IMG/VR virus record: IMGVR_UViG_3300012931_000039
Span: 1-40,557 of that record
DNA length: 40,557 bases
Source of the DNA: a virus
Strand: one strand, 5' to 3'
Below the pieces are notes generated by a model. It ran no database searches. It saw only the letters and a list, made by a program, of their open reading frames with translations, and had not been told where the DNA came from. Each line of letters begins with the position of its first letter. The stretch's first letter is position 1. The position numbers and the translations under genes were made by a program. This document shows, one piece after another, positions 4,595 to 40,557 of the stretch.

Positions 4595-5175
4595 GTCGCA
4601 TCCCTCCAGCGGTACTGCTCCAGCATGCTGGCCGTGCGGGCTGGCAGACCGCCCGCGGCGTAGCTCACGCTCACCCCACCGCCGGCCGACTCAGTCATCG
4701 AGGCTGGGTTGCGCTGCTGGTACAGGTCGGCCCCCAGGTCCAGAATCGCCGCGCGGACCACCGGCTCGATCACGGTGCTGTAGTCCGGGTCGGCGCTCAG
4801 GCCCACGGTGGCCGTGATCTGGTAGGGTCCGTTCCCGAAGCTCCGCCCGGGCACGGCCCGGATGACGGCCAGCTCGGCGTCCAGCTCGTAGTCGGTCGCC
4901 GCCACCGTGTCGCCGTCCGCGTCCACCACGGTCAGATCCTCGTCCGGGTCTACCGGCCCCTCGGGCAGGACCAGCTCGAGGATCGCCCCGTAGACCACGG
5001 CCGTCTCCGCCGGATCGCGGAAGGTCTTCTCCTCGGCCGTGATCGGCGTGCAGAGATAGCTGCGGACCCGGCCCGTGGCCTGGGCCAGCTTGTCGGTCAG
5101 CAGCGTGTCCTGGCCGTGGGCCCCCTGCGGGATCCGCAGGTGGTCTTTCAGGTCATTCAGCGTGGGCAGCGACAT
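4591..5175 (-). CDS. Head-tail connector protein (gp6-like adaptor)
   Basis: A 194-aa protein starting at ATG 5175 after a GGAGGG ribosome binding site. It has the common adaptor start (MSLPTLNDLKDHLRIP) with helices through about residue 75. An insertion rich in Asp and Val follows, then a C-terminal helix ending in 'LEQYRW'. This N-terminal motif is typical of Phage_connect/gp6-like adaptors that bind beneath the portal. The gene overlaps the preceding glycosyltransferase by 23 nt, so head-to-tail gene order resumes right after the sugar cassette. Confidence 0.75.
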   Translation of the reverse strand: MSLPTLNDLKDHLRIPQGAHGQDTLLTDKLAQATGRVRSYLCTPITAEEKTFRDPAETAVVYGAILELVLPEGPVDPDEDLTVVDADGDTVAATDYELDAELAVIRAVPGRSFGNGPYQITATVGLSADPDYSTVIEPVVRAAILDLGADLYQQRNPASMTESAGGGVSVSYAAGGLPARTASMLEQYRWRDAT

Positions 5176-5914
5176 CGGCCCTCCGGGGTGCCGGCTCACG
5201 CAGCCGGAGCGCGTAGCGGGCGTCAATCAACCGGCGCAGCGCCAGCCGCGCCGCGGTGCGGCGGTGGCGCCGGCCGCTTTTCTGGCCGGGGTGGATCCGG
5301 TAGGCCGTCGTCACGACCGACAGGCCGTGGAACACATAGCCCATGGCCAAGAGCCGCAAGTGGTACTCCCACTCCTCCGCCCCGGTCAACGTCACATCCC
5401 AGGGGCCCGCGTGCCGGCACATGGCCGTCCGGTACAGGATCCCTGTGCCGTGGAACACCAACCCCCGGCGCCGGCGCACCGTCTCCCAGGTGATCACGGG
5501 GTTCGCCGCCAGCCAGCGTTTCGACCGCTCGGGCGTGCCCAGGCTGTTGCCGCGCGCGTCCACGTAGAGCGGCAGCGAGCAGACGGCGTCCGCCTCGGGG
5601 TGGGCGTCCAGGTACTCGGCCAGGACCCGCAACTTGTTCGGGTACAGGAAGTCATCATCGCTCAGGATGCTCAGGTACTCGCCCCGCGCCATCTCCATGC
5701 CCCGGTTCACCGCGGCCGACAGCCCGGCGTGGGGTTGCGTCACCCAGCGGAACGGGATCGGGTGTGCCCAGCATGGGCGCGCGGCGTCCGGCCCGTCGTG
5801 CACGACGATCACCTCGAACCGTTCGGGCGGGTACCGCTGGAGCGCCACGCTGGCCAGCGCCTCGGCCAGGAACGCCGGCCTATGGTACGTGGGTACGATC
5901 ACGCTCACCTTCAC
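5153..5914 (-). CDS. Family 2-type glycosyltransferase (GT-A fold)
   Basis: A 253-aa protein with the textbook GT2 start (VSVIVPTYHRPAFLAEAL). It has a nucleotide-sugar binding region to about 50, the metal-binding DDD triad in 'LSILSDDDFLYP' near 110, and an acceptor-side TGAEEWEYHL near 195. It starts at GTG 5914 in a GTGA overlap with the preceding glycosyltransferase. It is the last of four sugar- or methyl-transfer genes lying between capsid and connector genes. The substrate is unknown; candidates are virion proteins, modified DNA or host envelope glycans. Confidence 0.85.
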   Translation of the reverse strand: MKVSVIVPTYHRPAFLAEALASVALQRYPPERFEVIVVHDGPDAARPCWAHPIPFRWVTQPHAGLSAAVNRGMEMARGEYLSILSDDDFLYPNKLRVLAEYLDAHPEADAVCSLPLYVDARGNSLGTPERSKRWLAANPVITWETVRRRRGLVFHGTGILYRTAMCRHAGPWDVTLTGAEEWEYHLRLLAMGYVFHGLSVVTTAYRIHPGQKSGRRHRRTAARLALRRLIDARYALRLREPAPRRADVAAHAE

Positions 5915-6675
5915 GGGGCCACCCCCGGTCGCGCGCTGCGCAGCCCGGCCAACATCTCCAACTCGGCCACCATCTCCAACTCGGCAGTCCCTAACTCGGC
6001 GCGCAGCAACTCGTCGGCCTCCACCGGCTGGCCGTTGACCTGGGCAGCCGTCCAGAGGTTCTGCCCGCTTTTGACGTCCAGCACCAGCCGCCTGCTGCCC
6101 GCCAGGCGGAGTGCTGTACACGGGATACCACGCATCCGGTCGTCCATCGTGCCGTCCAAGCCCCGGTGTTTGCCCCGCCGCACGCGCCACAGCGACCAGC
6201 CCAACCCACCCAAAACCTCCGCGCTGACCAGCCTACCCGTGCCAATCGGATGCCCGCAGCGCGCGGCGTCCGTGTAGCCTGGCCAGTAGCTTGTCTGGCG
6301 GGCCGCCGTGTCCAGGAAGTAGCAATCCAGCACGCCAGCGTAGGGGGCGCCGCAGGCCATGATCTGGAGGTACCAGGCGAAGGCCGCCGACCCGATCAGG
6401 TCGTCCGAGTCGAGCCGCAGCACGTAGTCGGCTCCCAAGTCGCGCGCCGCCCGTAGCCCGGCGTTGTGTTTGGCGGCCAGGGGCAAGTTTGGCACCAGTC
6501 GCACGTGTGCCCCGGCGTCCATGGCGATGTCGCGGTTGCGTGGGTCCTCGGGACTGCACAGGGCGACCACCTCGAACGCCGCCATCCTTCGCAGGCGGGC
6601 GAGGCCCAGCCAGTAAAGCCGGGAGACCGCTGGCCGGCCCCAGAAGGCCGTGACTACTACGAGCTTCAGCGCCAT
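5911..6675 (-). CDS. Glycosyltransferase, GT-A type
   Basis: A 254-aa protein starting at ATG 6675, whose start overlaps the end of the methyltransferase-like gene by 10 nt. The N-terminus (ALKLVVVTAFWGRPAVSRLY) and the D-x-D region 'LRLDSDDLIGSAAFAW' near 100-115 mark a GT-A glycosyltransferase. 'AAKHNAGLRAARDLGADYV' just before is the usual helix that precedes the metal site. The C-terminal ~60 residues are helical and Glu/Leu-rich. The sugar donor and acceptor cannot be read from the sequence. Confidence 0.75.
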   Translation of the reverse strand: MALKLVVVTAFWGRPAVSRLYWLGLARLRRMAAFEVVALCSPEDPRNRDIAMDAGAHVRLVPNLPLAAKHNAGLRAARDLGADYVLRLDSDDLIGSAAFAWYLQIMACGAPYAGVLDCYFLDTAARQTSYWPGYTDAARCGHPIGTGRLVSAEVLGGLGWSLWRVRRGKHRGLDGTMDDRMRGIPCTALRLAGSRRLVLDVKSGQNLWTAAQVNGQPVEADELLRAELGTAELEMVAELEMLAGLRSARPGVAP

Positions 6676-7202
6676 ACCACCGCCTGGTCCCGCATCACCG
6701 CGGCGTCCAGGTGCCCGGGCAGCCGCGCGGCGATCTTCTGGAGCGACACGTTCTGCCACTCGGGCCGCGGCCGCGGCGTGCCGAAGTCGTGCACGTCATC
6801 CACCAGCACCAGGTCATGGTACCGCCGGGTGGCGACGGCCCGTAACTCGTCCCAGAGCGGGAACCCCGCCGGGTCCCCGCGGCCCGCGACCTCGCGGCTC
6901 TGGAACCAGTGGGCGTCCAGGTAGAACACGGCCGGCTCGGCGATGCGTTGGCACAGCGGGGGCAGCACTACCCGGCTGTCGCCCAGGTGGAAGTGCAGGT
7001 CGGGCGTGGCGCCGTGCTCCCGCACGGCCTGGTCGTACAAGGGACGTGACAGCTCGATGCTGTGGACCACGGGGAACACGCTGCGCGCCAGCAGGGTGGT
7101 CTTGGCGTGGAACGTGCCCGTCTCCACGAAGACCCGGATGCCCGCGTATTGCGGGTGGCGAGCGCGTATCGCCTCGAGGTCGCGGAGCCGGAAATTGGCC
7201 AT
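6666..7202 (-). CDS. Class I SAM-dependent methyltransferase-like protein
   Basis: A 178-aa protein starting at ATG 7202 in a TGATG overlap with the preceding glycosyltransferase. 'VFVETGTFHAKTTLLA' around 25-40 is a motif-I-like glycine turn. 'HSIELS' near 48-53 matches the acidic post-I strand, and 'VFYLDAHW' near 93 the motif-IV strand. Such proteins are often annotated as FkbM- or class I-type methyltransferases beside glycosyltransferases, and may methylate a transferred sugar. The assignment is from fold motifs only. Confidence 0.6.
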   Translation of the reverse strand: MANFRLRDLEAIRARHPQYAGIRVFVETGTFHAKTTLLARSVFPVVHSIELSRPLYDQAVREHGATPDLHFHLGDSRVVLPPLCQRIAEPAVFYLDAHWFQSREVAGRGDPAGFPLWDELRAVATRRYHDLVLVDDVHDFGTPRPRPEWQNVSLQKIAARLPGHLDAAVMRDQAVVWR

Positions 7203-18388: not shown

Positions 18389-18890
18389 GGGGGTCTCCTG
18401 AGACGAAAGGTCGTAGCGCGTGTTGGGGCACCCAATACTGCTCCTGCGAGCCAGGCCGCAGCTGGTGCCGGGGGGCGGGATAGCAGATGGCTTCGCGGGC
18501 GAACAGGGCGCCGCACACTCGGCAGGTCAGCCGGTCGGCGCCGACGAGCACGAGCACGCACAGTTTGTCGGGGTCTTCCGTGCCGTAGACGATCAAGTGG
18601 CCGCCGGGGTTGGTAGTGGCACGCACCTCGTAGCCGGCCACGTCGCCCGCGCCGAACTCGTCATCGTTCGGGCGCCAGCCAGCGAGGCCCAGGGCCCGCG
18701 CCACGGCTAACTCGCCCAGCGCCCCCACGGTGTGATGGGCGATGAGGGCGGCGACCTCGCGCTGGGGCTCCCCGTGTCCCGGTTTCAGGCCGCGGTTCAG
18801 CACCCTGCGCACGCGCTCGGCCGCGGTGTCTTCGGCCGCGCGGCGGTCCTCATCCGTCAGGCGGACCAGGAGGCCGTCAGCGGAGTCCAC
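18369..18890 (-). CDS. PD-(D/E)XK-like protein with zinc-knuckle insertion
   Basis: A 173-aa protein starting at GTG 18890 and overlapping the Nmad1-like gene by 14 nt. 'GALGELAVARAL' (E60 after G59), 'GAGDVAGYEVRATT' (D83, E88-V-R90) and 'LCVLVLVG' follow the E...D...ExK order of PD-(D/E)XK nucleases. Arg replaces the usual Lys, so activity is uncertain. CRVC (123-126) with two later Cys residues suggests a bound zinc. It lies in the modification cluster, so it could read or cut DNA depending on modification state (speculative). Confidence 0.5.
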   Translation of the reverse strand: MDSADGLLVRLTDEDRRAAEDTAAERVRRVLNRGLKPGHGEPQREVAALIAHHTVGALGELAVARALGLAGWRPNDDEFGAGDVAGYEVRATTNPGGHLIVYGTEDPDKLCVLVLVGADRLTCRVCGALFAREAICYPAPRHQLRPGSQEQYWVPQHALRPFVSGDPRGTPSR

Positions 18891-19431
18891 AGCGCGCCCC
18901 GGCTTGCCAGAGGTACATGTAGCGCCGCAGGTCGAGCAGGTCATCCAGCACGCCGGCGGGGTCCCAAAGCTGGGCTTCCAACGCCCGCAGCAGCCCGCCG
19001 TGAGTGTCCATCTGGACCCGCATGCGGTCCCACTTGCGGATTCCCACCATGTAGGCCCCCACGCCACCCCGCCGGTACCAGCTGTCGCCGTAAGTGGTCT
19101 GGCGCGCCCGCAACACGGCCACGTCCCCTCCCAGTGCCAACCCGCATTCCGCACGGTAGTCCCAACACTGAAACGCCGTCAGCCACTGGCGCGCTTCCCG
19201 CACGTACGCCCGCACGGTCGGCTCCATGTCGAGGGCGTGAAAGATGTCCCAGCCGAACTCCCGCGCCGAGATGTCCACCCGGGTCATCAGTTCCACCAGC
19301 CATCGTTCCTCGAGTGAGGGGTGTCGGCGTTCCACCCATCGCCTGACCACCCGCTCGTCGGCACGGCACAGGATCTCTACACCGCGCAGGATGCGCTCGC
19401 CCGTGGGCAACAACTCGCGTTTATGTGGCAT
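18877..19431 (-). CDS. Nucleotide modification associated domain 1-like protein (Nmad1 / DUF1599)
   Basis: A 184-aa protein starting at ATG 19431 and overlapping the end of the hydroxymethylase gene by 11 nt. The C-terminal half has 'TTYGDSWYRRGGVGAYMVGI' (112-131), KWDR (133-136), then 'LDDLLDLRRYMYLW' (162-175). This follows the DUF1599 order of Y-G-x-x-W, a K-x-x-R helix and a D-D-L-x-D-x-x-x-Y helix. That family was named for frequent linkage with DNA base modification genes, which fits this neighbourhood. Its own activity is unknown; the N-terminal ~90 residues look like an added helical domain. Confidence 0.6.
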   Translation of the reverse strand: MPHKRELLPTGERILRGVEILCRADERVVRRWVERRHPSLEERWLVELMTRVDISAREFGWDIFHALDMEPTVRAYVREARQWLTAFQCWDYRAECGLALGGDVAVLRARQTTYGDSWYRRGGVGAYMVGIRKWDRMRVQMDTHGGLLRALEAQLWDPAGVLDDLLDLRRYMYLWQAGARCGLR

Positions 19432-20527
19432 CTTCGCCCACCGGCTCGCGGGGGGTTCCCGGCTGGTACCAGGCCTGGGGCACTTCGATACCGCGGTAGT
19501 GCCGTACCAACCATTCCCCGCAGGCCAAGCGCCAGTCAGTGGCCCGACACTGACGCACGTGTTCCAGCGCCAGCGCGACGTTCTCTCGCCGCACGTCCCA
19601 GGCCCGGCGCAACGGCTGGGCCACCTCGTAGAAGTAGGGGTAAGAGTAGCCTTCCCGATCCCACGCCGGGCCTAAGAACCGCATCAGGTCCAACTCCCAA
19701 TCGGCCGTCTTGAGCCCTAGGGAGATACCGCCGTAGAACAGCGGGTAGGGATGCACCCAGCCGAGCTCGTAGGGACAGGCGGTGCGGTTGACAAACTGCT
19801 CGGCGCCCCAACGCTCGCCCCACAGCGCGGCGTACACGTGGGCGTTGGCGGTGGCGAAGTGCAGGGCGCCCACGCCCAGGGGCACGCCGGCCCGCTCAGA
19901 GATCGCCTCGGCCAACCACTCTTGGAGCATGCTGAAGTGGACGACGTTCGCCCCAAACAGTCCCCAGATCAGGTCGTGCCCGCGCGCCGTGATTAAGAGG
20001 TCGAGCCGGTCGTCCACCAACCGGCCCCACTGGTGCGAGCGGACGGTGGGCACCACGGCCAGGTTGCACGGCACGTCGCGCCCCGGGCCAGGGCCGTCGC
20101 ACCGCGGGTCCCACATGCCCAACACCACGCGCCGCTCCGTGGGGTCGGCCGCCAACCGTTCGGCCGCGGCCAACAGCTGGTCCCGGCCGAAGTGATGACG
20201 CCAGCGGTGCCCGTAGGCCCCCGCGAAGGTCACGCCGTCGTCCGAGTAGTCGGTCATGCGGCGGTTGAACTGTGCCAGCCAGGCCACGTCGTTCGAGCCG
20301 GCGAGCATCCACAACCCCTCCATCAGGTGGAAGAAGGGGTTGGCGTCCCGCACGGCGTCAAACAGCACCCGCTCCCGCGGGCGCTCCACCTCGGTGAACA
20401 GCGGGCCGGGCAGCCGCAAGACGCCACCATTCCGCGAGCCGTCTGGCTGGGCGTAGGCGTGCAACTCGATCCGCGCCACGGCGAACACCTCGTTCACGTT
20501 GCGTCCGCGTACCGTGTGCATGGGCAT
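19421..20527 (-). CDS. Thymidylate-synthase-fold dUMP hydroxymethylase (probable)
   Basis: A 368-aa protein of the TS / pyrimidine hydroxymethylase superfamily. Key positions are visible: 'FFHLMEGLWMLAG' with E70; 'RRVVLGMWDP' (132-141); 'RDVPCNLAVV' with catalytic Cys154; and 'DLLITARGHDLIWGLFGANV' with R182 and N194. The Asn in 'GAN' is the residue that reads dUMP in thymidylate synthases, where dCMP hydroxymethylases carry Asp. The substrate is therefore probably dUMP. Linkage with 5-hmdU kinase and transferase genes argues that the product is hydroxymethyl-dUMP, but plain dTMP synthesis cannot be excluded. ATG 20527 follows an AGGAGA site. Confidence 0.75.
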   Translation of the reverse strand: MPMHTVRGRNVNEVFAVARIELHAYAQPDGSRNGGVLRLPGPLFTEVERPRERVLFDAVRDANPFFHLMEGLWMLAGSNDVAWLAQFNRRMTDYSDDGVTFAGAYGHRWRHHFGRDQLLAAAERLAADPTERRVVLGMWDPRCDGPGPGRDVPCNLAVVPTVRSHQWGRLVDDRLDLLITARGHDLIWGLFGANVVHFSMLQEWLAEAISERAGVPLGVGALHFATANAHVYAALWGERWGAEQFVNRTACPYELGWVHPYPLFYGGISLGLKTADWELDLMRFLGPAWDREGYSYPYFYEVAQPLRRAWDVRRENVALALEHVRQCRATDWRLACGEWLVRHYRGIEVPQAWYQPGTPREPVGEDAT

Positions 20528-20548
20528 GAGGTCTGGTCTCCTGTCCCG

Positions 20549-21493
20549 TTAGGCCGGCAGCGTACCTGCCGGCATGAACAGCTGGCGCGGGAGGCCCTGG
20601 CCGAGCCGGGCGCGCTCGTACTTGTCCATCTCGCAAAGTGAGTGCTCGATGTCGCGCATCTCCAACGGCCGCGGTACCCAGGACGCGAGCGGCGAACCGG
20701 CGCCGTTGGCTACGGCCAGCAACTCGCGCATCTCACCCACGGGGTCAGCCGGCCGCACGTGCAGCGGCCGTCCGTGGACCCGGTTCAGGCCGCGCACGGC
20801 GCCGAGCCCCGCATGGGCCCAGGTCATGATGTCCGGCGCCCGACACAGAAGATCCGTGTGGCGCAAGTCGCTGACCACTTCATACGCCGTGAACCCCCCG
20901 CCCCAGCCTGGTAGTGCGCTCAACCAACACCAGAGTGCCAATAGGGTGCCGCACAACGACGGGGGGTCAAGACCCCACGCCAGCGTCTGGGCAATCCCGT
21001 TCAGCACCGTGTAGACGGTGTAGTAGGGCTTGTTGTTGTCCCGCGGGGCGCTCGGGTCTCGTCGCTGGACATCACCCCGCACCACGTAGGCCCCGGTGTA
21101 GACCTTCTCCCCGCGACGTGCCCGGTCGCGCATGATGTGGTAGACACGCCCGGGGTCCCAAGGCCAGGGGTATCCGATGGCCTCGAGCGTCGGCGGCCAG
21201 TTGATCGCCCGGGCGACCGCCATCGCGAACAGGACCGAGGGGTCGCCGCGATGCGGCTCGCGCCAGTGCTCCCGTATCCAGATGGTCGTTCGGTCCAGCT
21301 CGCGGAACACGTTGCAGAAACGGTAGCGTGCCAGGATCGGATCGTCCGTGTAGGCGTAACGCAGTGGCTGCCCGTTACCTATGACCGCCTCTCGTGCCGC
21401 TGGCGAGAGGTAATCCTGCCCTGCTACCCAGCGCCGGCGCAGGTAGATCGCATGCCGCTCGTTGATCCAGTCCCACAGGGCTTGGGCGTTCAC
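20549..21493 (-). CDS. 5-hmdU DNA kinase helical partner / DNA-glycosylase-like (HMUDK_hel type)
   Basis: A 314-aa helical protein starting at GTG 21493 in a GTGA overlap with the P-loop kinase. 'RFCNVFRELDRTTIWIREHW' (58-77), followed by 'FAMAVARAINWPPTLEAIG', matches the conserved start of the helical domain that accompanies 5-hydroxymethyl-dU DNA kinases and the related thymine pyrophosphorylase-like families. In several known phages this domain is fused to the kinase; here it is a separate gene translated directly after it. It probably binds DNA around the modified base. Assigned from memory of the family pattern. Confidence 0.65.
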   Translation of the reverse strand: MNAQALWDWINERHAIYLRRRWVAGQDYLSPAAREAVIGNGQPLRYAYTDDPILARYRFCNVFRELDRTTIWIREHWREPHRGDPSVLFAMAVARAINWPPTLEAIGYPWPWDPGRVYHIMRDRARRGEKVYTGAYVVRGDVQRRDPSAPRDNNKPYYTVYTVLNGIAQTLAWGLDPPSLCGTLLALWCWLSALPGWGGGFTAYEVVSDLRHTDLLCRAPDIMTWAHAGLGAVRGLNRVHGRPLHVRPADPVGEMRELLAVANGAGSPLASWVPRPLEMRDIEHSLCEMDKYERARLGQGLPRQLFMPAGTLPA

Positions 21494-22140
21494 GGGCGGC
21501 CGTCCCGGAGTATGTCCAGGAGGCCCGGCAGCGGGTCGCCGTGCGGCAGCCACCGGACCCGGCATCCATAGCTCTCGAGTTTTAGGGCGTTCTTCCTGGT
21601 GCCGCGCCACTTGTCCTCAGTGTTGGCAGGGTTCAACGGCTTGGAGACTCCCCGGGCATCCCGTCTTGCTTGGATGCGCGCCACACACAGCTCCAGTGGC
21701 GTGTCCAAAAAGGCGAAGGTGATGCCGCCGTATCCCGCCAGCCGGCGGTCGAGCTCGGCGTATCGCTTGGCGCTGACGCTCACCAGCAGCCCCTCAAACA
21801 GCACATCACCTTCGGGTGCCCAGCGTGCCACCCGGGCACAGATCTCGTCCTGCGTGGGCACCCTGTCGCAGCCACCGCACTCGTTCTCGTAGCTGCCGAT
21901 CACGAACGTCGGCCGCGGGCCGGCGCACCGGTAGGCCAGCGGCACCTGTCGCGGCGCACGCCCCGGTCGCCAGGGGTCAAGCCCGAATCCCAGCGTGAGC
22001 GACTCCGCCGGCTGGCCGTACACCTCGGGAAACGGGCCAGCCGGCGAGTACAGCGGGGCCCAGCCCCCACAGTGATCACGGTAGGCCCGCACCAGCCAGC
22101 TCTTGCCGCTGCCCGAGGTGCCCCGGATGTTGACGATCAC
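21490..22140 (-). CDS. P-loop 5-hydroxymethyl-dU DNA kinase
   Basis: A 216-aa P-loop kinase starting at ATG 22140, overlapping the upstream transferase gene by 4 nt. Walker A is GTSGSGKS (7-14) within 'MIVNIRGTSGSGKSWLVRAY', the characteristic opening of phage hmdU DNA kinases. 'PTFVIGSYENECGGCDRVPT' (77-96) contains a Cys pair, and 'GDVLFEGLLVS' and 'ITFAFLDTPLELCVARI' are the expected later strands. In characterised phages this enzyme places pyrophosphate on the 5-hydroxymethyl group in DNA, creating the leaving group that the amino acid transferase displaces. Confidence 0.75.
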   Translation of the reverse strand: MIVNIRGTSGSGKSWLVRAYRDHCGGWAPLYSPAGPFPEVYGQPAESLTLGFGLDPWRPGRAPRQVPLAYRCAGPRPTFVIGSYENECGGCDRVPTQDEICARVARWAPEGDVLFEGLLVSVSAKRYAELDRRLAGYGGITFAFLDTPLELCVARIQARRDARGVSKPLNPANTEDKWRGTRKNALKLESYGCRVRWLPHGDPLPGLLDILRDGRP

Positions 22141-23339
22141 AGCCCCAGCCCCTGCTGGAGCGCCGCCCGGGCCGCGGCGGTCCGCGCCTCACAGCCGTCG
22201 TTGAAGTCGTTGCGGAAGCAGTCCCAGTCGGCGTCCATCATGATCACCTGGCCGGTGTGGCGGTAGTGGTTCTGTTTCAGGGGGCACAGGCCGGGGTCGC
22301 CGGGGTTGTCCTCCAGCCGCAGTTGGGCGGGCAGGCGGTCCCGGCGTGCCTGCCAGAAGATGTTCAGATCCTCGTCCGGCCAGCGACGCTCCGCCCGCCG
22401 GATCCGGTCATGCAACATGTCCATGTAGACGTTCGGGTACCGCCGGTTTGGCCGGTGCCAGCTCTTGTACGTACACAAGGCTGACTCCAGCGTGAAGTAC
22501 CCCACGTCCTCTGCGCCCGGCGCCCCCACCACGATCCGACGCCGCGCCTCACGCAGCAAGGTCGCCGCCTCCTCGACCAGCCAGCCCAACACCTCCCGCG
22601 TGTACTGGCCGGCGAACCCCGTGGGGTTGCTCTCGTGCCAGTCCAGGTCGTCACGCCCCAGCACCTTGGCCAGCCCGTTGCGGTGCGATTTGCTGCCCTC
22701 CATGTCTTCCAAGAACAACTGGTTGCACTCCAACGGCAGGCCCATGATGCGCAGGTACTCCAGGTAGCTGAACGTGCTCAACCGGCCGAAGCTGAAGAAG
22801 TCGCGCCGCACCGCAGCCCAGACCGCCCGGAAGTTGGCTCGGGGGTCGGAGCTCCCGCACAGGCGGGCGAAGTAGTCCGCCTGGGCGCCCCGGGTCAGCA
22901 TCCGGTAACAGGCCACGCTGGCCACGAAGTCGCCCTTCTGATGCCGGCGGTCGGTGTCGAACTCCAGCCGCGGGTACTCCCGGCCCCACCAGTCCTCGAG
23001 GCCCGGGCTGTTCGGCGTGGGAAAGCGCCGATGGATCAGGAGGCTCGTGATGGGGTGCTGGGTATTGCCGTTGAGGAAAGCAAACCACAGGGCCTGCTCG
23101 TCGTCCCAGGCCAGGTTCTGCCGTAGGTACGGCATGAGCAGGTACACCCCACCCGGGTGCGAACGGTGCCGCAGGTGAAACTCGTAGAAGCGCAGGAACA
23201 CCTCACGCCGGTACTCCGGTCGCCGGAAGTCTTGGCCCACCCGGAGATCCGCCATTTCCGGTACCCCGGTCAGCGTGGCGTAGCGCCCCGCGGTGTCGTG
23301 CGACACCAGCGCCGGAGGCGCGTACCACAAGTCGCTCAC
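22137..23339 (-). CDS. Amino acid:DNA transferase-like protein (thymine hypermodification)
   Basis: A 400-aa protein starting at GTG 23339 in a GTGA overlap with the PLP enzyme, with GGGGAGGC ahead of it. 'FLRFYEFHLRHRSHPGGVYL' (48-67), then 'EQALWFAFLNGNTQHPITSL' (81-100) is the signature I associate with phage amino acid:DNA transferases (ADDT, of the thymine pyrophosphorylase / DNA-glycosylase-like group). Later conserved-looking parts include 'DFFSFGRLSTFSYLEYLRIM' and a final CPLKQNHYRHTGQ. The expected reaction replaces pyrophosphate on activated hmdU in DNA with an amino acid. Which amino acid is not evident. Confidence 0.65.
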   Translation of the reverse strand: MSDLWYAPPALVSHDTAGRYATLTGVPEMADLRVGQDFRRPEYRREVFLRFYEFHLRHRSHPGGVYLLMPYLRQNLAWDDEQALWFAFLNGNTQHPITSLLIHRRFPTPNSPGLEDWWGREYPRLEFDTDRRHQKGDFVASVACYRMLTRGAQADYFARLCGSSDPRANFRAVWAAVRRDFFSFGRLSTFSYLEYLRIMGLPLECNQLFLEDMEGSKSHRNGLAKVLGRDDLDWHESNPTGFAGQYTREVLGWLVEEAATLLREARRRIVVGAPGAEDVGYFTLESALCTYKSWHRPNRRYPNVYMDMLHDRIRRAERRWPDEDLNIFWQARRDRLPAQLRLEDNPGDPGLCPLKQNHYRHTGQVIMMDADWDCFRNDFNDGCEARTAAARAALQQGLGL

Positions 23340-24388
23340 CGAGCCTCCCCGGCCACGACCCAATAGAGCCATGGGCGCTGGCGATGGTGCGCGAGAACGG
23401 CCGGGTGATCCTGAGTGTACAGCCAGCTCTTGGCCTCGTACCGCGGGTGCAGCCGCAGGGCCGTGCCGTCGGCCAGGGGGATCGAGGCGGGACGCAGCTG
23501 CTCGTAGGTGGTGTAGCCGTGTTGGCACAGCCGGCACTCGTGGTTCCCGCAACCGCCATACACGTCGTGATGCCAGAGCTCGTAGCCTCCGCTCGGCGGC
23601 AGGCCCCACCGCTCGCGGAACGACTCGGCTGCCCACCCCGCACCCCGCCAGCAGACCGGGTGATACCAGTCGGCCAGCCGCTCGCCGACCGCCTGGCCGA
23701 TGACCTCGAGCCGCTCGTAGATCATCTCGGGGTAGCGAGACCCATCGTGTCCCACGCCCATCACCACTACCCGCCGCAACGACGGGAGCGGCCAACGGGT
23801 CAAGCCGTACAGCACCGAGGTCACACTGGTGCACGAACCGGCGCAGATCACCAGTGTCTCCACGTCGGGTGGCAGGTTCTGCACCTGCTGGGCGCCCCAA
23901 CGGTGAAACGCCTCCAATTCGGCGGCGCTGTGGTGCCGGTGATCCAGGGTGATGTTCGTCTCCACATGCAACCAGCTCTTCGCCGCAGCGTGCGTTCGGG
24001 CTCGAGCGTTCAACGTGCCAGCGTAGCCGGGGTTCACGGTGACCACGTCGGCCGTCTCCGGTACGCCGGCCGGCCGCCCGCGCCCGCCCGTGAACAGCGT
24101 ACAGGGCACGCCCAGCGACCGCGCACACTCGGCCACCATCTGGTGTTGTGGACTCTCCCGCACCGCCCCGGCGGTTACGCCCGCTATCGGCGTCCGGGCC
24201 ATCAGCCACATCAACTGGCGCAGCTTCGCCCCGTTCACCCCGGCGCCGGGGAACGGCCGGAACAGGTCCTCCCGCTTCACGTAGCCACCCGGCCCGAGCA
24301 TCTGCATCACCGGGGTCAACTCACCCATTCGCCTCATCCAGTCGGCCACCACTGCCGGATCCCATCCGATCAGACCCCCACTCGTCAT
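23336..24388 (-). CDS. Fold type II PLP-dependent enzyme (ACC deaminase / D-Cys desulfhydrase-like)
   Basis: A 350-aa protein starting at ATG 24388 in an ATGA overlap with the zinc-ribbon gene. 'GYVKREDLFRPFPGAGVNGA' followed by KLRQL (35-60) mirrors the KRED...GxK-x-RKL segment of fold type II PLP enzymes, with K55 the likely PLP lysine. 'GVTAGAVRESPQHQMVAECA' (70-89) matches the substrate/cofactor loop, and 'LVICAGSCTSVTSVLYGL' the phosphate-binding Gly/Ser loop. Near the C-terminus a Cys/His group (CGNHECRLCQHG) may bind metal. It precedes the transferase gene, so it may process the amino acid on DNA or supply it. Confidence 0.65.
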   Translation of the reverse strand: MTSGGLIGWDPAVVADWMRRMGELTPVMQMLGPGGYVKREDLFRPFPGAGVNGAKLRQLMWLMARTPIAGVTAGAVRESPQHQMVAECARSLGVPCTLFTGGRGRPAGVPETADVVTVNPGYAGTLNARARTHAAAKSWLHVETNITLDHRHHSAAELEAFHRWGAQQVQNLPPDVETLVICAGSCTSVTSVLYGLTRWPLPSLRRVVVMGVGHDGSRYPEMIYERLEVIGQAVGERLADWYHPVCWRGAGWAAESFRERWGLPPSGGYELWHHDVYGGCGNHECRLCQHGYTTYEQLRPASIPLADGTALRLHPRYEAKSWLYTQDHPAVLAHHRQRPWLYWVVAGEAR

Positions 24389-24657
24389 CCGTCCCCCACC
24401 CTCCGCGGCGGCGACAGGGGCAACACCTCCCCGTCGTCGGTCAAGTGGAATCCCTGCTCCCGGGCGCGGGCCGCGTCCTCCAGCCGCTGGAGACAATCGC
24501 CACAGGTGGCGTTGGCCCGCGTCTCACCCGGCCGCAGCCCCGTGAAGGACATCCCGTCGTAGTCTTTGCCGCACTGAGGGCAGTGTTTGGGGATCAGCAC
24601 CGGGCCGGCCGCGATCCGCGGGTCCAGCGCGTCGCCCAGCTTCACTGGTTCGCTCAT
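24385..24657 (-). CDS. Small zinc-ribbon protein
   Basis: A 90-aa protein starting at ATG 24657, overlapping the replication gene stop (ATGA). 'HCPQCGKDYDGMSF' (25-38) and 'ATCGDCLQRLEDAARAREQG' (50-69) give a CxxC...CxxC zinc ribbon followed by a helix. There is no catalytic signature. It links the replication gene and the modification genes in one translationally coupled chain. Confidence 0.6.
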   Translation of the reverse strand: MSEPVKLGDALDPRIAAGPVLIPKHCPQCGKDYDGMSFTGLRPGETRANATCGDCLQRLEDAARAREQGFHLTDDGEVLPLSPPRRVGDG

Positions 24658-30395: not shown

Positions 30396-31370
30396 GTGAG
30401 CGGCGACACCCGATTCGGTGACGTGCTTCCCGAGGACGAAGCGACGGACCCCGCGCGCCCCGCGCCGGAAGAGCGCATCACGCGGCTGGCGAAAGACGCT
30501 GGACCCATAGGTAGTGCGGTATGCGTCCTGCGCGAAATCGTCAGCGGGGATCGCGGCGTTGTGATCCTACCGCGCGAGGCATCTGCCCTACTGCGCGAAT
30601 TGGAGCGCGGCGTCTCGCTGCCGGTGCCCGCGCCGGAGGAACGCACCACGCCGGACGAGCAGTTGGAAACGCTCGCCCTGGCCATCGTCCGCACGGTCAA
30701 GCAGTACGCGGCCTACGACGAGCGAGCTGTGGCGGCGATGGTGACATCGTGCGTCGAGCAGGCGTGCGAGGTCGTGACGGAGCGCGGCGTGGCGCTCCTC
30801 GCCGTCACACCGCCCGTCCGGCGCTGCGGTTCGTGCGGCGGGCCGCTCGTCTCACACACGCAGTGGATTTGCCGAGGGTGCAACCTCGTTGCCCAAGAGG
30901 GCGGCGGTGTGCTCATCGGCCCCGGCGGAAAGGGCATGGCCACGGGCGCGAATCAGGAGCAGGCTGGCGGTGGGAGTGATGCCCCTTTGCCTCGCACTAT
31001 TGATGCGAGCGACGCCAGCCCTGCCCCCAGCCTGTCGCCGGCCCCTGGCTGCGCGGCCTGTTCTGTGCGGGAAGCGGCCCAGCTCCTACATGATGAGAAC
31101 CCTAAGGCGTTCGGCATGTCAGCACTGTGCGCCGCGCTGGCCCAGCCCTGCGGAGCGCCCCAGCCGTCCGAGGCGGCGGCAGACCGTGAAGTCCAACTCG
31201 CACTGGCCTCTGAGCGCATGACGCCGGAATCGGAAGGTCGCTGGCCAAGCACGCCGGAAGGTCGGCGCGAATTGTTCCGGGCGGCCTTCGAGTCGGGTTG
31301 GGACTGGTCTCGGATTGCCCAATTCGGCGCCCTAGGCGGCGGGCCGCAGGAGGAGCGAGACCATGGGTGA
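30396..31370 (+). CDS. Large zinc-ribbon hypothetical protein (324 aa)
   Basis: GTG 30396 has GGAGGTGA five bases ahead. Two copies of an 'APEER(I/T)T' element (residues 23-29 and 79-85) each precede a helical segment. 'RRCGSCGGPLVSHTQWICRG' gives a C144/C147...C159/C162 zinc ribbon. A low-complexity Ala/Pro/Gly linker (170-220) and a C-terminal 'RELFRAAFESGWDWSRIAQF' domain follow. The mosaic look and internal repeat suggest assembly from smaller genes. No family recognised. Confidence 0.55.
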   Translation: MSGDTRFGDVLPEDEATDPARPAPEERITRLAKDAGPIGSAVCVLREIVSGDRGVVILPREASALLRELERGVSLPVPAPEERTTPDEQLETLALAIVRTVKQYAAYDERAVAAMVTSCVEQACEVVTERGVALLAVTPPVRRCGSCGGPLVSHTQWICRGCNLVAQEGGGVLIGPGGKGMATGANQEQAGGGSDAPLPRTIDASDASPAPSLSPAPGCAACSVREAAQLLHDENPKAFGMSALCAALAQPCGAPQPSEAAADREVQLALASERMTPESEGRWPSTPEGRRELFRAAFESGWDWSRIAQFGALGGGPQEERDHG

Positions 31371-31461
31371 TCGTTGCGCGTGGATGGCCCGGCACTGGTG
31401 GCTCGATCTCTGGGTGGTGCGCGTGGCGGTTATCCTACGCGCCCCGGAGACCCCTCGGTGA
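31363..31461 (+). CDS. Small Trp-rich peptide (32 aa)
   Basis: ATG 31363 overlaps the end of the zinc-ribbon gene by 8 nt and ends in a GTGA with the next small gene. It is preceded by AGGAGCGAG. The product is hydrophobic and Trp/Arg-rich (WMARHWWLDLWVVRVAVILR), possibly a short membrane-associated peptide. Confidence 0.4.
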   Translation: MGDRCAWMARHWWLDLWVVRVAVILRAPETPR

Positions 31462-31538
31462 CCGCCTGCTGGTGGGGCCTGCTGGCCGCGTACTCTTGGG
31501 GGCTCCCACGGGTGATCGACCGGGCGGAGCGCCAGTGA
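31458..31538 (+). CDS. Small hydrophobic peptide (26 aa)
   Basis: GTG 31458 (GTGA overlap) to TGA 31538, which overlaps the start of the methyltransferase. The product begins 'MTACWWGLLAAYSWGLP', half of a membrane span. With the previous gene it forms a pair of tiny coupled ORFs. It is real only if translation is confirmed. Confidence 0.35.
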   Translation: MTACWWGLLAAYSWGLPRVIDRAERQ

Positions 31539-32896
31539 GCCATGTCTACTACAACGACAATGAGCCGTTTGTCGCCCAGTGGTTGCGGAACCTGATCGCG
31601 GCGGGCCACCTGCCCGCTGGAGACGTGGATGAGCGGAGCATCACCGAAGTCCAACCCGACGACGTGCGCGGCTACACCCAATGCCACTTCTTCGCTGGCA
31701 TTGGCGGCTGGCCTCTCGCGCTCCAGCTCGCCGCTTGGGGCGACCGACCTATTTGGACCGGCTCCTGCCCCTGCCAACCCTTCTCCGCGGCGGGCAAAGG
31801 GCAAGCCGGCGCTGACGCACGGCATCTCTGGCCAGCGTGGTTTCGGCTCATCCGCGAGTGCCGCCCTGAGCGAGTCTTTGGCGAGCAGGTTGCAAACGCA
31901 ACTGGGCACGGCTGGCTCGACCTTGTGGCGACAGACCTGGAAGCGGAGGCGTACACCGTTGGGTCGGTTGAACTGGGCGCACACAGCGTCGGGGCTCCGC
32001 ACCAACGGCAACGGCTCTGGTTCGTGGCCGAGTCCCGATGCCCAGAACATGCGCCCTGGAGACTCACCCCGGACGCTGACGCCGGAACGCATGGCGAGCG
32101 GCAGGACCAAGCCAGCGGGAGCGAGCCTGCATCATGCGGCCCAACTGGCGACGTGGCCGACGCCGAACGCGATCCCCGAAACGCGGGGCGGATTGCAAAC
32201 GAGCCCCGAGGGCGCGATGAAGCGGCGAGCGGCGGGCCATGCGGTGAACCTGGACGATGCGGCCCAATTGACGGCCTGGACGACGCCGCAGGCCCACGAC
32301 GCGACGGCGCGGGGCAAGGGCCAGAAGCCGAAGCATGGGACGAAGCACGGGTGCGCCGACCTGAACGCGGACGCGGTTTTGGCTGGCTGGCCGAGCCCGA
32401 TGGCAGGAACCCCTGCGACGGAGCGGTACAACGAAGCGGGCAACACGGACAGCAGCCGCAAGACGGTGGACCTCGCCAGTTGGGCAACCCCGCGGCTGGA
32501 GGACGGGGAGAGCGCGGGGATGCGCCACGCCCGCCAGACGGCGGACACGCTCTCCGCGCAGGCGGGGCAGGATGTGGGGAGTTGGCCGAGCCCGAATACG
32601 CGGGACCATCACGCACAGGGGGCGACCCACAACCCGAAGGCGCAATCATCCTCGCTGGCGACCATCGCTCAAAAGAAAGCGCCTCCCCTTGGGATGCCTA
32701 TCTCTGGCTCCCCTGCCGCGACGGGAAAGCCCGCCCGATTCCTGCTGAACCCGCGCTTTTCCCTCTGGTTGATGGGCTACCCAACCGCGTGGGCCTCCTG
32801 CGGGGAGCGGGTAACGCGATCAACCCGCAGACGGCAGCGGCGTTTGTGAGGGCCTACATGGACTGTATCGACCGGGCGGACCGGGGGCCACGGTGA
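31535..32896 (+). CDS. DNA cytosine-C5 methyltransferase
   Basis: A 453-aa protein starting at GTG 31535 in a GTGA overlap. Motif I is FAGIGG (53-58), motif IV is 'GSCPCQPFSAAGKG' with catalytic Cys80, motif VI reads GEQVA in place of the usual ENV, and motif VIII is QRQRLWFV (157-164). The C-terminus has 'CRDGKARPIPAEPALF' and 'RVGLLRGAGNAINPQTAA' (motif X). Between about 170 and 390 lies an Ala/Gly/Arg/Asp-rich region with repeated 'ADAE/AEPE' elements in place of an ordinary target recognition domain. That stretch is also open in the +1 frame, which encodes its own conserved-looking motifs. Confidence 0.85.
   Translation: MSHVYYNDNEPFVAQWLRNLIAAGHLPAGDVDERSITEVQPDDVRGYTQCHFFAGIGGWPLALQLAAWGDRPIWTGSCPCQPFSAAGKGQAGADARHLWPAWFRLIRECRPERVFGEQVANATGHGWLDLVATDLEAEAYTVGSVELGAHSVGAPHQRQRLWFVAESRCPEHAPWRLTPDADAGTHGERQDQASGSEPASCGPTGDVADAERDPRNAGRIANEPRGRDEAASGGPCGEPGRCGPIDGLDDAAGPRRDGAGQGPEAEAWDEARVRRPERGRGFGWLAEPDGRNPCDGAVQRSGQHGQQPQDGGPRQLGNPAAGGRGERGDAPRPPDGGHALRAGGAGCGELAEPEYAGPSRTGGDPQPEGAIILAGDHRSKESASPWDAYLWLPCRDGKARPIPAEPALFPLVDGLPNRVGLLRGAGNAINPQTAAAFVRAYMDCIDRADRGPR
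31629..32849 (+). CDS. Overlapping +1-frame ORF nested in the cytosine methyltransferase gene
   Basis: A 406-codon frame lies wholly inside the methyltransferase gene, with ATG 31629 six bases after GGAG. It does not look like random shadow. It has repeated W-P/T/A/S-(T/S)-P units (SWPSPDAQ, TWPTPNAIP, AWTTPQAHD, GWPSPMAGTP, SWATPRL, SWPSPNTRD). The N-terminal part has 'DLFGPAPAPANPSPR' and 'GSTLWRQTWKRRRTPLGRL', and the C-terminus 'LNPRFSLWLMGYPTAW'. I have met the same motif set in phage proteins annotated as methyltransferase-related. The sequence alone suggests two proteins are selected from one stretch. Function unknown. Confidence 0.5.
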   Translation: MSGASPKSNPTTCAATPNATSSLALAAGLSRSSSPLGATDLFGPAPAPANPSPRRAKGKPALTHGISGQRGFGSSASAALSESLASRLQTQLGTAGSTLWRQTWKRRRTPLGRLNWAHTASGLRTNGNGSGSWPSPDAQNMRPGDSPRTLTPERMASGRTKPAGASLHHAAQLATWPTPNAIPETRGGLQTSPEGAMKRRAAGHAVNLDDAAQLTAWTTPQAHDATARGKGQKPKHGTKHGCADLNADAVLAGWPSPMAGTPATERYNEAGNTDSSRKTVDLASWATPRLEDGESAGMRHARQTADTLSAQAGQDVGSWPSPNTRDHHAQGATHNPKAQSSSLATIAQKKAPPLGMPISGSPAATGKPARFLLNPRFSLWLMGYPTAWASCGERVTRSTRRRQRRL

Positions 32897-38100: not shown

Positions 38101-40557
38101 CATGCCGCACGCCCAGGGTGTAGCTCACGGCGGGCGTGAGCGAGAGCCAGACTTCAGCCGACCCCGCCGGGAGCCGGGCCACCAGCACTGCCTCGTCCGC
38201 CGGGTCGCCCTGTGGCCGCTGGTAGACCTCGAGCGGCACGTCCGTCTCGCCCACCGTCCACGAGAACTTGGTCCGGCCGGCATCGTCCGGGTCGGCCGCG
38301 TGGCCCAAAGCGCTGGGCGCCACGAGGTCCGTCAGGTTGACGTCCTGCCAGGCACTCCAGGCCGTAGGCCGCTGGTCGTTCCGGAAGGCTTGCATCCGGA
38401 TCCAGATCCGCGCCCCCGCATCGACCAGCGGGGTCAGGAAGTCGGCGGGGAGATAGCCTTCGGAATACGTGGCCAGCAGCGCGCCGCCATCAGCGGGGGC
38501 CGAGCCCCCGGCATGCCATTGGACCCGGAGCCAGGCGCGCGCGGTGTCCAGGGCGGCCTTGTTGGTGACGGTCACGGCGACCTGCTTGTTGCCGCTCGCC
38601 GCGAGGGTGAAGGTCGGGCTGGTGTTGAACTGGCTATTGGGCCCCGAATCCAGCAGCCGCAGGACCAGCCCTTCAGGTTGGACGGTGCGTTGGACCACCT
38701 GGAGGATCCGCGCCCCACCCCGGACCCCGGCGTTGGGCAGGTGGGCCACGTCGAGGATCAACTCATCGCCCAGCCGCTCCACCACGGTGTCCAGCACTTC
38801 GACGTTGCCGAACACCCCGCCCCGGCCGAAGCGGTCGAAGATCTCCATTGCCAGGGAATGCTCTGTGCTCCAGACACCCCCCGCAAACGGGTATCCACCC
38901 CCCTGGAGCGCGGCGTGGGTAACGGAGATCGTGCCTGGCAGGTCGAACACCAACTCCCGCGGCCCCTCCGTGGCACTGTCTGGCGTCCCGTCCCCGTCCG
39001 AGTCGAGCGGCACCTCGCGCGTCCGGGTGAGGCTCTGCACATCATCCAGCGGCCGTTCGGTGCCGAACTCATCACTCCAGGCCCGGAACTCCTGTTGCGC
39101 AATCCGAATCGTGTTGTAAATGGTGCTCTCGTCCAGCTCGAAGATCACCGTGTCGGGGCTGCGCAGATCCGTCAGGTCGTAGGTGTTGCTGGGCGCCGTG
39201 AGGTTGCGCACCCGCACCACGACGATCTCGATCTCGCCGTCGTCGCCGCGGCGGAGCCCCACGCCGAACAACCCACACAGCAGTCGCAGACAGTCGCCCA
39301 AGACGGGCGGGTCGGTGATCCGGAGCGTGATCAGCAGGTTGGGGCCCAATGCGCTCTTGGTGGCCGCCGCCAGGGTGCTATCCCAGGGAATCCCGGCGTC
39401 ACTGAGGAGCGCCGTGATCAAGTCAACCGGGTGGCCCTCGTAGTGGTAGGGGTTGTCCTTGCCCACGACGTTGCGCCAGGCGTAGAGCCGGTACTGGGCG
39501 CCGACGAGGGGCGGGCTGGCATCCCAGGGCGTGCCGACCGTCGAGACGATCAGGGCGCTCTGCGCGTTGGCCAGCAGCGGCCCGTAGGGGGCGTACTCCT
39601 CGAACTGCACGACCGGGATGAAGTCATCCACCAGCGTGCCGTCCAGGTCAGCCACGCGGACCGTGAGGTCGCTGAAGACGGGTTGGTCGCCTGTTGGCTC
39701 GTAGACCCCTTCCCAACTGGTCTGGGCGAAGCGGTTGGCCCGGCCCAGGGCGAGCGCGCCCATGCCCCGCGGCGGCCCTAATTCATAGCGGCCGTCTTCC
39801 ACCGGCAGGAACCCTTGCTCGAAGGCCAGGGTCACGGTATGGGCCCCGGCGTCGGCGTCCACCACCTCGAAGACCGGGGCTCCCCGATCGGGCACCGGGC
39901 CCCAGCCACCGTGAATCGGCCCCCCAATCAGGCAGCTGATCGCCGGCAGGTAGTCGGTGTAGCGGGCGAAGGCCCGGCGTGTGAACTCCACCCTCTGTGA
40001 ATCGGCGATCTGGAACTGCCAGCGCAGCGCATCCAGCAGCCGGTAACTGTTCACGTAGCCGGCGATCAGCACCGTGCCCCAGCTCGAGCCCCCGTCGTCG
40101 CTCATCTCCACGTAGGCCCGCCGGTGCACCAGCGTCTGCCGGCCGTTCGCATCCACGATCGCCCGGGTGATGAGGCGGTAGGTGGTGTAGACGAGGGCTT
40201 CGACGAGGTCGATCCGGACGTCCTGGTTGGCGTTGCCCTGCGTCTCGAAGCGCCAGCGGCGGTGGCCGCTGTTCTCGAAACTCACGCCGAACGTCTTGGC
40301 GCCGATCAGCGTCCGGGTCCCTCCCCCGAAGTTCTCGCGGTAGTAGGTGACGGTGGCCCCGCTGAAGGCCAGCACGAACCGGCATTGGCCGCCGGCATTG
40401 GCCAACGCCAGCGTCCCCAGCACCGTGTCCTCGACCAAGACGCCGGCCGCGCCGCGGACGGCGCGCACTTGCACGGTGTTCGCATCGATCGGGCCGAGTT
40501 TGATCCCGATCCCGTCCTGGTAGACGCCACCAGTGGCGCTCGCGCGGGCGTAGAAGG
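35186..40557 (-). CDS. Giant tail / host-specificity protein, main part
   Basis: With its N-terminal part at 1-501 this makes a 1945-aa protein. Beyond the jelly-roll-like start (FYARASATGGVYQDGIGI) come tail-tip-like beta regions. A fibronectin-III-like middle (FSWTVGETDVPLEVYQRP) follows. The C-terminal third (FWRQVGDGATAGAPDWDTVL and later Gly/Ala/Thr-rich repeats) is in the style of tail fibres. A GTG at 40474 is not the real start. The gene likely combines the tip (J-like) and fibre functions in one chain and ends in an ATGA overlap. No chaperone peptidase motif was identified. Confidence 0.8.
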   Translation of the reverse strand, partial: FYARASATGGVYQDGIGIKLGPIDANTVQVRAVRGAAGVLVEDTVLGTLALANAGGQCRFVLAFSGATVTYYRENFGGGTRTLIGAKTFGVSFENSGHRRWRFETQGNANQDVRIDLVEALVYTTYRLITRAIVDANGRQTLVHRRAYVEMSDDGGSSWGTVLIAGYVNSYRLLDALRWQFQIADSQRVEFTRRAFARYTDYLPAISCLIGGPIHGGWGPVPDRGAPVFEVVDADAGAHTVTLAFEQGFLPVEDGRYELGPPRGMGALALGRANRFAQTSWEGVYEPTGDQPVFSDLTVRVADLDGTLVDDFIPVVQFEEYAPYGPLLANAQSALIVSTVGTPWDASPPLVGAQYRLYAWRNVVGKDNPYHYEGHPVDLITALLSDAGIPWDSTLAAATKSALGPNLLITLRITDPPVLGDCLRLLCGLFGVGLRRGDDGEIEIVVVRVRNLTAPSNTYDLTDLRSPDTVIFELDESTIYNTIRIAQQEFRAWSDEFGTERPLDDVQSLTRTREVPLDSDGDGTPDSATEGPRELVFDLPGTISVTHAALQGGGYPFAGGVWSTEHSLAMEIFDRFGRGGVFGNVEVLDTVVERLGDELILDVAHLPNAGVRGGARILQVVQRTVQPEGLVLRLLDSGPNSQFNTSPTFTLAASGNKQVAVTVTNKAALDTARAWLRVQWHAGGSAPADGGALLATYSEGYLPADFLTPLVDAGARIWIRMQAFRNDQRPTAWSAWQDVNLTDLVAPSALGHAADPDDAGRTKFSWTVGETDVPLEVYQRPQGDPADEAVLVARLPAGSAEVWLSLTPAVSYTLGVRHAEDAPFHGVSTTTEMSFTVPGAVPTLPAPYGASAFCGLGSPETIFSWHSTIGLCIQGAVVPSAIEVEMAVETAVGSGIPGAYTLQQTVPTAVSGLTRWETSAPVDGKLRYLRARHVRPGATASAYTAVVSVMPGLLKACSIPTVSTVQLFQDPSGAVRATVMTRGGGSVKIAAAVDTDPDDSSVFPDAAAVRAETALDTDEAGVAVSGTLLAISDGETAYVSVLAYEEAAGAGAESIDLGKQRISFVAGGGFAGLTTTHVKDGWAASLNGAESVVLLDSEGEEAFSNLEDATPIETTFTVSYMVNSQSLAGTLMELTLWKNDGPASTNWTQVGVKTYSVGQKHNQIDSISFAAQLDANWDLKAHLHFLGVLGGSGSLLMLSEISSPAGVEYDALSGSFSGATVTGSPPAEGDTLYGTAGAWAAVAGNVSTTRKFWRQVGDGATAGAPDWDTVLAADVVPGDLQEGQYNLLGGLATDVVLGTRVTGDATQRYQLYASGKMEWGAGGVAAVDTNLYRSAADTLKTDDALIVAGLLTAQAGLTVSGGSFVYGSNPFDLVASTSDGADTNVLRLSGGGAFGSTRGAVLQLIGNERAGGAGIAGSVYLDTGDVTGAQLHFRTANGAGLVEALTLNADQTATFAASIAASQAILGTSLGVNALVQGSSNANTGLIYLSPVTGTQAAFGRLVNNSGDLFWGVDRSTGGALFSGGTAYAGFLGVLSNQPLQFGTNATIRLTIAATGAADFQGHAVAMGALTATTVKATSGFAVVLGNVAGELRLQGTSVSNINLLNTSDNWGSLSLGALTATNDGAALSLVRATAGGNTFVGFYDTTPTLKGFIQYVAANDEMAFGVAGSSGKMRLGATAIVPESAALLTLGTTALPWKNPSFGYDASNRLDVTISDAGLVTYTAVGASAKHLFADDVDVSSGKVYRVNTTQVVGAQGAAVADATDPASTMARLNDWLARARAHGLIAT
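40538..40557. repeat. Contig-end direct repeat, right copy
   Basis: This copy is identical to bases 16-35. Position 40557 is the second base of a minus-strand codon, as is position 35, so collapsing the overlap keeps the reading frame of the giant tail protein. Confidence 0.85.

Follow-up and report, generated by a model that had tools for sequence, protein, structure and literature searches.

A coupled operon in a 40.6 kb high-GC phage record predicted to specify a Salmonella phage ViI-type thymidine hypermodification pathway

The window analysed here, the whole 40,557-base stretch of an IMG/VR virus record (G+C 68.7%), carries on its minus strand the five coupled genes described in an earlier note on this DNA; all are present, with borders now refined, and the families named there are supported by Pfam and PHROG matches and by structure models. 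From upstream to downstream, the genes encode a predicted fold type II PLP-dependent tailoring enzyme (23336–24388; phrog_3650, 5.2e-45; predicted PLP lysine Lys55 at 24224–24226); an amino acid:DNA transferase (ADDT) of the aGPT-Pplase2 type, with a GTG start (22137–23339; PF18724, 1.2e-15; phrog_3271, 1.5e-75); a P-loop 5-hmdU DNA kinase-like protein (21490–22140; phrog_800, 1.4e-17; Walker A motif GTSGSGKS at 22099–22122); the 314-residue HMUDK_hel protein (alias aG/PT-PPlase1), also starting at GTG (20549–21493; PF18723, 1.8e-35; phrog_2396, 1.6e-46); and a TS-fold pyrimidine hydroxymethylase, the predicted maker of 5-hydroxymethyl-dUMP (19421–20527; PF00303, 2.2e-11; phrog_5131, 1.2e-83). 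The profile searches proposed earlier as a check on HMUDK_hel, ADDT and the hydroxymethylase thus return the expected families, all three beyond the Pfam cut-offs. With the refined starts, the PLP/ADDT, ADDT/kinase and kinase/HMUDK_hel junctions are 4-base GTGA stop/start overlaps, the exception being a 21-base gap between the HMUDK_hel and TS genes. The unit is slightly larger than first reported, for it takes in a minus-strand gene at either end. Upstream lies a gene for a 90-residue zinc-ribbon-like protein with two CxxC pairs (24385–24657), joined to the PLP gene by a 4-base ATGA overlap, for which a Pfam search gave no family above cut-off; downstream, a gene for a small conserved protein without a Pfam match, associated with TS and HMUDK_hel (18877–19431), overlaps the end of the TS gene.

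Matches to terminase, portal and minor tail proteins, together with the size of the record, are consistent with the earlier label of a small siphovirus. Each end of the record (1–60 and 40498–40557) falls within a long minus-strand reading frame, and a 20-base stretch, GCTCGCGCGGGCGTAGAAGG, is common to both; the record appears to be a permuted or circular genome, broken within a repeat-rich gene. On the plus strand, a cytosine-C5 DNA methyltransferase gene (31298–32896; phrog_363, 4e-73; PF00145, 3.2e-12) means that the phage probably has a second DNA modification besides that of thymidine. A search of bacterial genomes returned three MAG contigs only; two of these, labelled Actinomycetota/Actinomycetes and with an ADDT more than 50% identical, hint at an actinobacterial host.

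The TS-fold protein retains the catalytic cysteine, Cys154 (20066–20068), within the motif GRDVPCN, and its base-specificity position is occupied by Asn194 (19946–19948), as in thymidylate synthase, whereas alignments place an Asp there in the CMP hydroxymethylase MilA; a dUMP-type substrate is therefore predicted. By phrog_5131 membership and an iterative profile, the protein groups with the M6-type enzymes linked to HMUDK_hel, which tells against its being an ordinary thymidylate synthase. This possibility, or that of a decayed or unexpressed cluster, would leave the DNA unmodified; the record is known from sequence alone, but every frame is open and coupled and the catalytic residues are kept, making such an outcome most improbable. 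A profile built from the small 18877–19431 protein identified family members beside TS/hel at over 50 of the 85 HMUDK_hel loci (among L095–L172), and it also picks out a segment of the TS reading frame in Glutamicibacter phage Montesquieu.

Of the five family assignments that of the kinase is the weakest, its Pfam match (PF18748, HMUDK; 0.0021) being below cut-off; phrog_800 also contains the 5-hmdU DNA kinase of ViI, and an iterative profile unites the window kinase with those of M6, PaMx11 and ViI, placing it in the HMUDK family. The only clear structural relative of the AlphaFold2 ADDT model (pLDDT 93.3) is the PaMx11 5-PmdU glycinyltransferase gp46 (8z2m; VIA Z 17.0, 251 residues, 3.3 Å, 15% identity); DNA glycosylase-like folds come next. 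The PLP protein is likewise modelled (pLDDT 88.8) as fold type II, nearest to D-cysteine desulfhydrase and ACC deaminase (Z 21.8–22.6); Lys55 is invariant in an alignment of 19 rows, and the PF00291 match is below the Pfam cut-off, with a strong one to phrog_3650, the family of ViI orf00226. In many relatives the PLP gene lies next to that of the ADDT, in some as a single fused reading frame, and homologues of all five window genes are retained in unrelated phages. PDB sequence searches with the ADDT, kinase, PLP and HMUDK_hel proteins gave chance matches only; a scan of viral contigs with the PLP protein alone, using back-translated patterns that were too specific, gave no match.

Iterative profiles identified ViI homologues of all five proteins (TS, Vi01_060c; kinase, Vi01_061c; hel, Vi01_130c; PLP, Vi01_182; ADDT, Vi01_199). 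The window ADDT and PLP enzyme fall into the PHROGs of ViI (3271, with ViI orf00247, and 3650, with ViI orf00226) rather than those of M6/PaMx11 (6364 and 7093), and share with ViI the ADDT motifs FGRLS, DTD, GSxSxRNG and RDD and the PLP motifs NGxKLRQ and SPQ, all of which are replaced in M6/PaMx11. Together with the dUMP-type active site and the HMUDK-family kinase, this membership of ViI subfamilies makes it likely that the cluster specifies a thymidine hypermodification pathway of the ViI type; counted against this explanation, the reading frames searched yielded no recognisable DNA polymerase, dUTPase or hmdUMP kinase.

The TS-fold enzyme, judged by its family and the residues of its active site, would make 5-hydroxymethyl-dUMP, to be incorporated for part or all of dTMP; the P-loop kinase, by its family, would then phosphorylate the hydroxymethyl group within DNA; the ADDT, by fold and subfamily motifs, would swap the phosphate for an amino acid; and the PLP enzyme would modify this amino acid once attached, decarboxylation being the likeliest reaction. 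HMUDK_hel would seemingly be required when hmdU comes via the nucleotide pool, and the modified base would likely benefit the phage through protection from host restriction enzymes. The evidence supports the type of pathway outlined in the earlier note, from hmdU made by a TS-fold enzyme through displacement by an amino acid to tailoring by a PLP enzyme; the pyrophosphate named there as leaving group is imprecise, since such an intermediate is documented for PhiW-14 (PMC5977210) and the PaMx11 transferase uses the monophosphate 5-PmdU (titles of structures 8z2m/8z2n).

That the product is some PLP-tailored aminoacyl-dT base can be expected with considerable confidence. Its identity may be approached through ViI, which is the most economical model because the homologues of all five proteins, the ADDT and PLP PHROGs and the motifs match. 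The amino acid attached in ViI is reportedly serine and its PLP enzyme is said to be a decarboxylase, both attributed to Lee et al. 2018/2021. In the window, serine joined via its oxygen and then decarboxylated would yield 5-(2-aminoethoxy)methyl-dU (5-NeOmdU), which by gene-set identity with ViI is the product that we cautiously favour. ViI DNA holds 43% 5-NeOmdU, 7% 5-hmdU and 50% T at its thymidine positions and withstands many restriction enzymes (PMC6449724). The presence of a fold type II PLP enzyme, from which an undescribed base had earlier been suggested, does not itself point to one, as PALP-type enzymes are also carried by ViI (orf00226, 33% identical) and M6 (PF00291, 5.6e-10), and ViI has the full set.

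The amino acid may nevertheless differ from that of ViI, because the two ADDTs are 26% identical, that of ViI has a very long branch in the tree, and the closest relatives of the window ADDT belong to TET/JBP-route phages, for which we know of no measured base. The same pathway run with another amino acid, or with another PLP reaction (elimination, racemisation or retro-aldol), would give an undescribed base; such an outcome would also suit the resemblance of the PLP fold to β-elimination/deamination enzymes and the exchange of the PLP gene for other genes in relatives, but it has to be weighed against the retention of ViI-type motifs in both ADDT and PLP proteins and the place of the same PLP family in a ViI pathway of known product, and we consider it possible rather than expected. 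A glycine route as in M6/PaMx11, ending in N-alpha-glycinyl-T, 5-aminomethyl-dU or 5-(2-aminoethyl)-dU, appears improbable: the kinase, hel and TS proteins are close to those of M6 (hel 42%, TS 39%) and the ADDT has the fold of PaMx11 gp46, yet the ADDT belongs to phrog_3271 and not phrog_6364, both it and the PLP protein lie outside the M6/PaMx11 PHROGs and lack their motifs, and no FAD enzyme or radical SAM tailoring gene was found in the cluster. The ViI-type reading thus remains preferred, and the cluster very probably represents a known system in a new carrier, not new chemistry.

The source of hmdU varies among phages that have a related ADDT. TET/JBP oxygenases are encoded at 64 of the 80 viral loci found via the window ADDT and TS plus HMUDK_hel at 4, with both at none; likewise, when Pfam models were run over 30 whole records, TS and HMUDK_hel always occurred together (5 records), and Tet_JBP turned up in a further 24. 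By its gene content the window has a TS front end, and the Tet_JBP model (PF12851) that matched those 24 of 30 related records finds nothing across its 40.6 kb, in a record that may be incomplete. In a 50-row ADDT tree, 6 changes are required to account for the TS/hel label, at least 2 of them forced by well-supported branches; combined with the locus counts, this indicates that the hmdU source has been exchanged ahead of a conserved kinase–ADDT–PLP back end.

Variation is also seen at the tailoring position. At many TET-route loci (for example L075, 1850–2590) the PLP gene before the ADDT is replaced by one for a protein of about 250 residues without a Pfam family, which looks methyltransferase-like by sequence and has family members at about 40 ADDT loci; at others, among them L055 (1935–3002), a second, different PALP enzyme takes that place; both are possible alternative tailoring steps. 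In L137 (IMGVR_UViG_3300035180_000820, 4968–6845) a class II glutamine amidotransferase domain (PF13522, 9e-9) is fused ahead of the ADDT domain (PF18724, 5e-23), an arrangement found in two contigs only (L137 and L187), with identical protein sequences; the fusion suggests that the nucleophile is glutamine-derived ammonia and not an amino acid, which would give 5-aminomethyl-dU directly. In Mycobacterium phage Zemanar (L001, 785–3465), the protein annotated as terminase small subunit (gp4) is in fact like 5-hmdU DNA kinases, the one annotated as queuine tRNA-ribosyltransferase (gp2) matches a Tet_JBP profile, and gp3 is an ADDT; phrog_800 bears the same wrong name as gp4. Zemanar-like phages look like unrecognised thymidine hypermodifiers.

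The helical protein had been presented in the earlier note as the partner of the kinase. Its HMUDK_hel family is upheld, and the partnership is doubtful because the protein goes with the TS gene and is also present where no kinase was detected. Among 85 HMUDK_hel loci, in records that may be fragments, TS is found at 80 and TET at none; 18 have the kinase, 57 a TAGT-family glycosyltransferase without kinase, and none both. Clustering at 70% identity leaves 31 clusters, partly dependent on one another, of which 14 have kinase and TS, 7 glycosyltransferase and TS, 6 TS only and 4 neither, with TET in none, and 40 whole records include 10 with a kinase and none with Tet_JBP. The complete isolate genomes of Brevibacterium phage LuckyBarnes and Microbacterium phage Neferthena carry hel, TS and TAGT and give no kinase match; their DNA is predicted to contain T together with glycosylated hmdU. 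Such a distribution speaks against a role for HMUDK_hel limited to partnering the kinase. In pelagiphages, TS had already been linked to aG/PT-PPlase1 (that is, HMUDK_hel), a deoxynucleotidase and a glucosyltransferase (PMC9599517); the present analysis adds that HMUDK_hel loci exclude TET and can lack the kinase. A role as a second, ADDT-homologous amino acid transferase was considered and rejected, with an hhalign probability of 0.4% and the PaMx11 transferase being gp46 and not the hel protein gp50.

A further hint comes from SPO1 and CampHawk, which represent one lineage and in which a TS-fold gene is present and HMUDK_hel was not found; in SPO1 DNA, T is replaced by hmdU (table in PMC5977210). 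The link to the TS route, the absence from T-less SPO1 and the kinase-free occurrence make HMUDK_hel a candidate for the step that leaves normal T. Phages of the TS route build their T positions from hmdUTP, yet their mature DNA has part T, and for PhiW-14 the mechanism of the T-restoring step is stated as unknown (PMC5977210). It is conceivable, though we hold it unlikely, that HMUDK_hel, alone or as part of a larger enzyme, determines which hmdU residues in new DNA become ordinary thymine. Such a role would fit its absence where T is never lost, as on the TET/JBP route, and where hmdU is kept throughout, as in SPO1/CampHawk, as well as its persistence without kinase in glycosylating phages. 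Much of this distribution would also be expected if HMUDK_hel instead acted in the nucleotide pool.

If the assignment holds, the ViI-type DNA-disguise pathway extends, as a compact operon, to a small high-GC phage, and the kinase–transferase–PLP back end is seen joined to two different hmdU sources. The distribution of HMUDK_hel offers a testable gene candidate for how thymine reappears in hmdU-built genomes and suggests that the Pfam name of the family misleads. Should its genes function together, the operon would also offer a ready set of enzymes for writing amine handles into DNA.

Compared with known systems, TET/JBP-route phages (for example Zemanar and the marine contigs L018 and L075) share with the window an ADDT 46–60% identical, the kinase and often the same PLP enzyme, but have no TS or hel that could be found and are expected to make hmdU in DNA with a Tet_JBP oxygenase. 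Pseudomonas phages M6 and PaMx11 have the same TS, hel and kinase families and the same ADDT Pfam family and fold; they differ in their glycine-type ADDT subfamily and in tailoring, which involves a radical SAM-like and another PLP protein in M6 and FAD and acetyltransferase proteins in PaMx11. Their bases are 5-NedU (M6) and N-alpha-GlyT/5-NmdU (PaMx11). Glutamicibacter phage Montesquieu (OV696619), which infects an actinobacterium and for which, to our knowledge, no base has been measured, encodes TS, hel, ADDT, PLP and kinase in 47.6 kb, so that the full gene set in a small genome is, as judged by gene content, not unique to the window; unlike the window, it has two kinase paralogues, genes in two blocks and an ADDT about 40% identical to that described here. 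The 5-NeOmdU pathway of ViI (Kuttervirus) has all five homologues, the same ADDT and PLP PHROGs and the same subfamily motifs; its genes lie dispersed across the 157 kb of a myovirus genome, whereas in the window they form one coupled operon within 40.6 kb.
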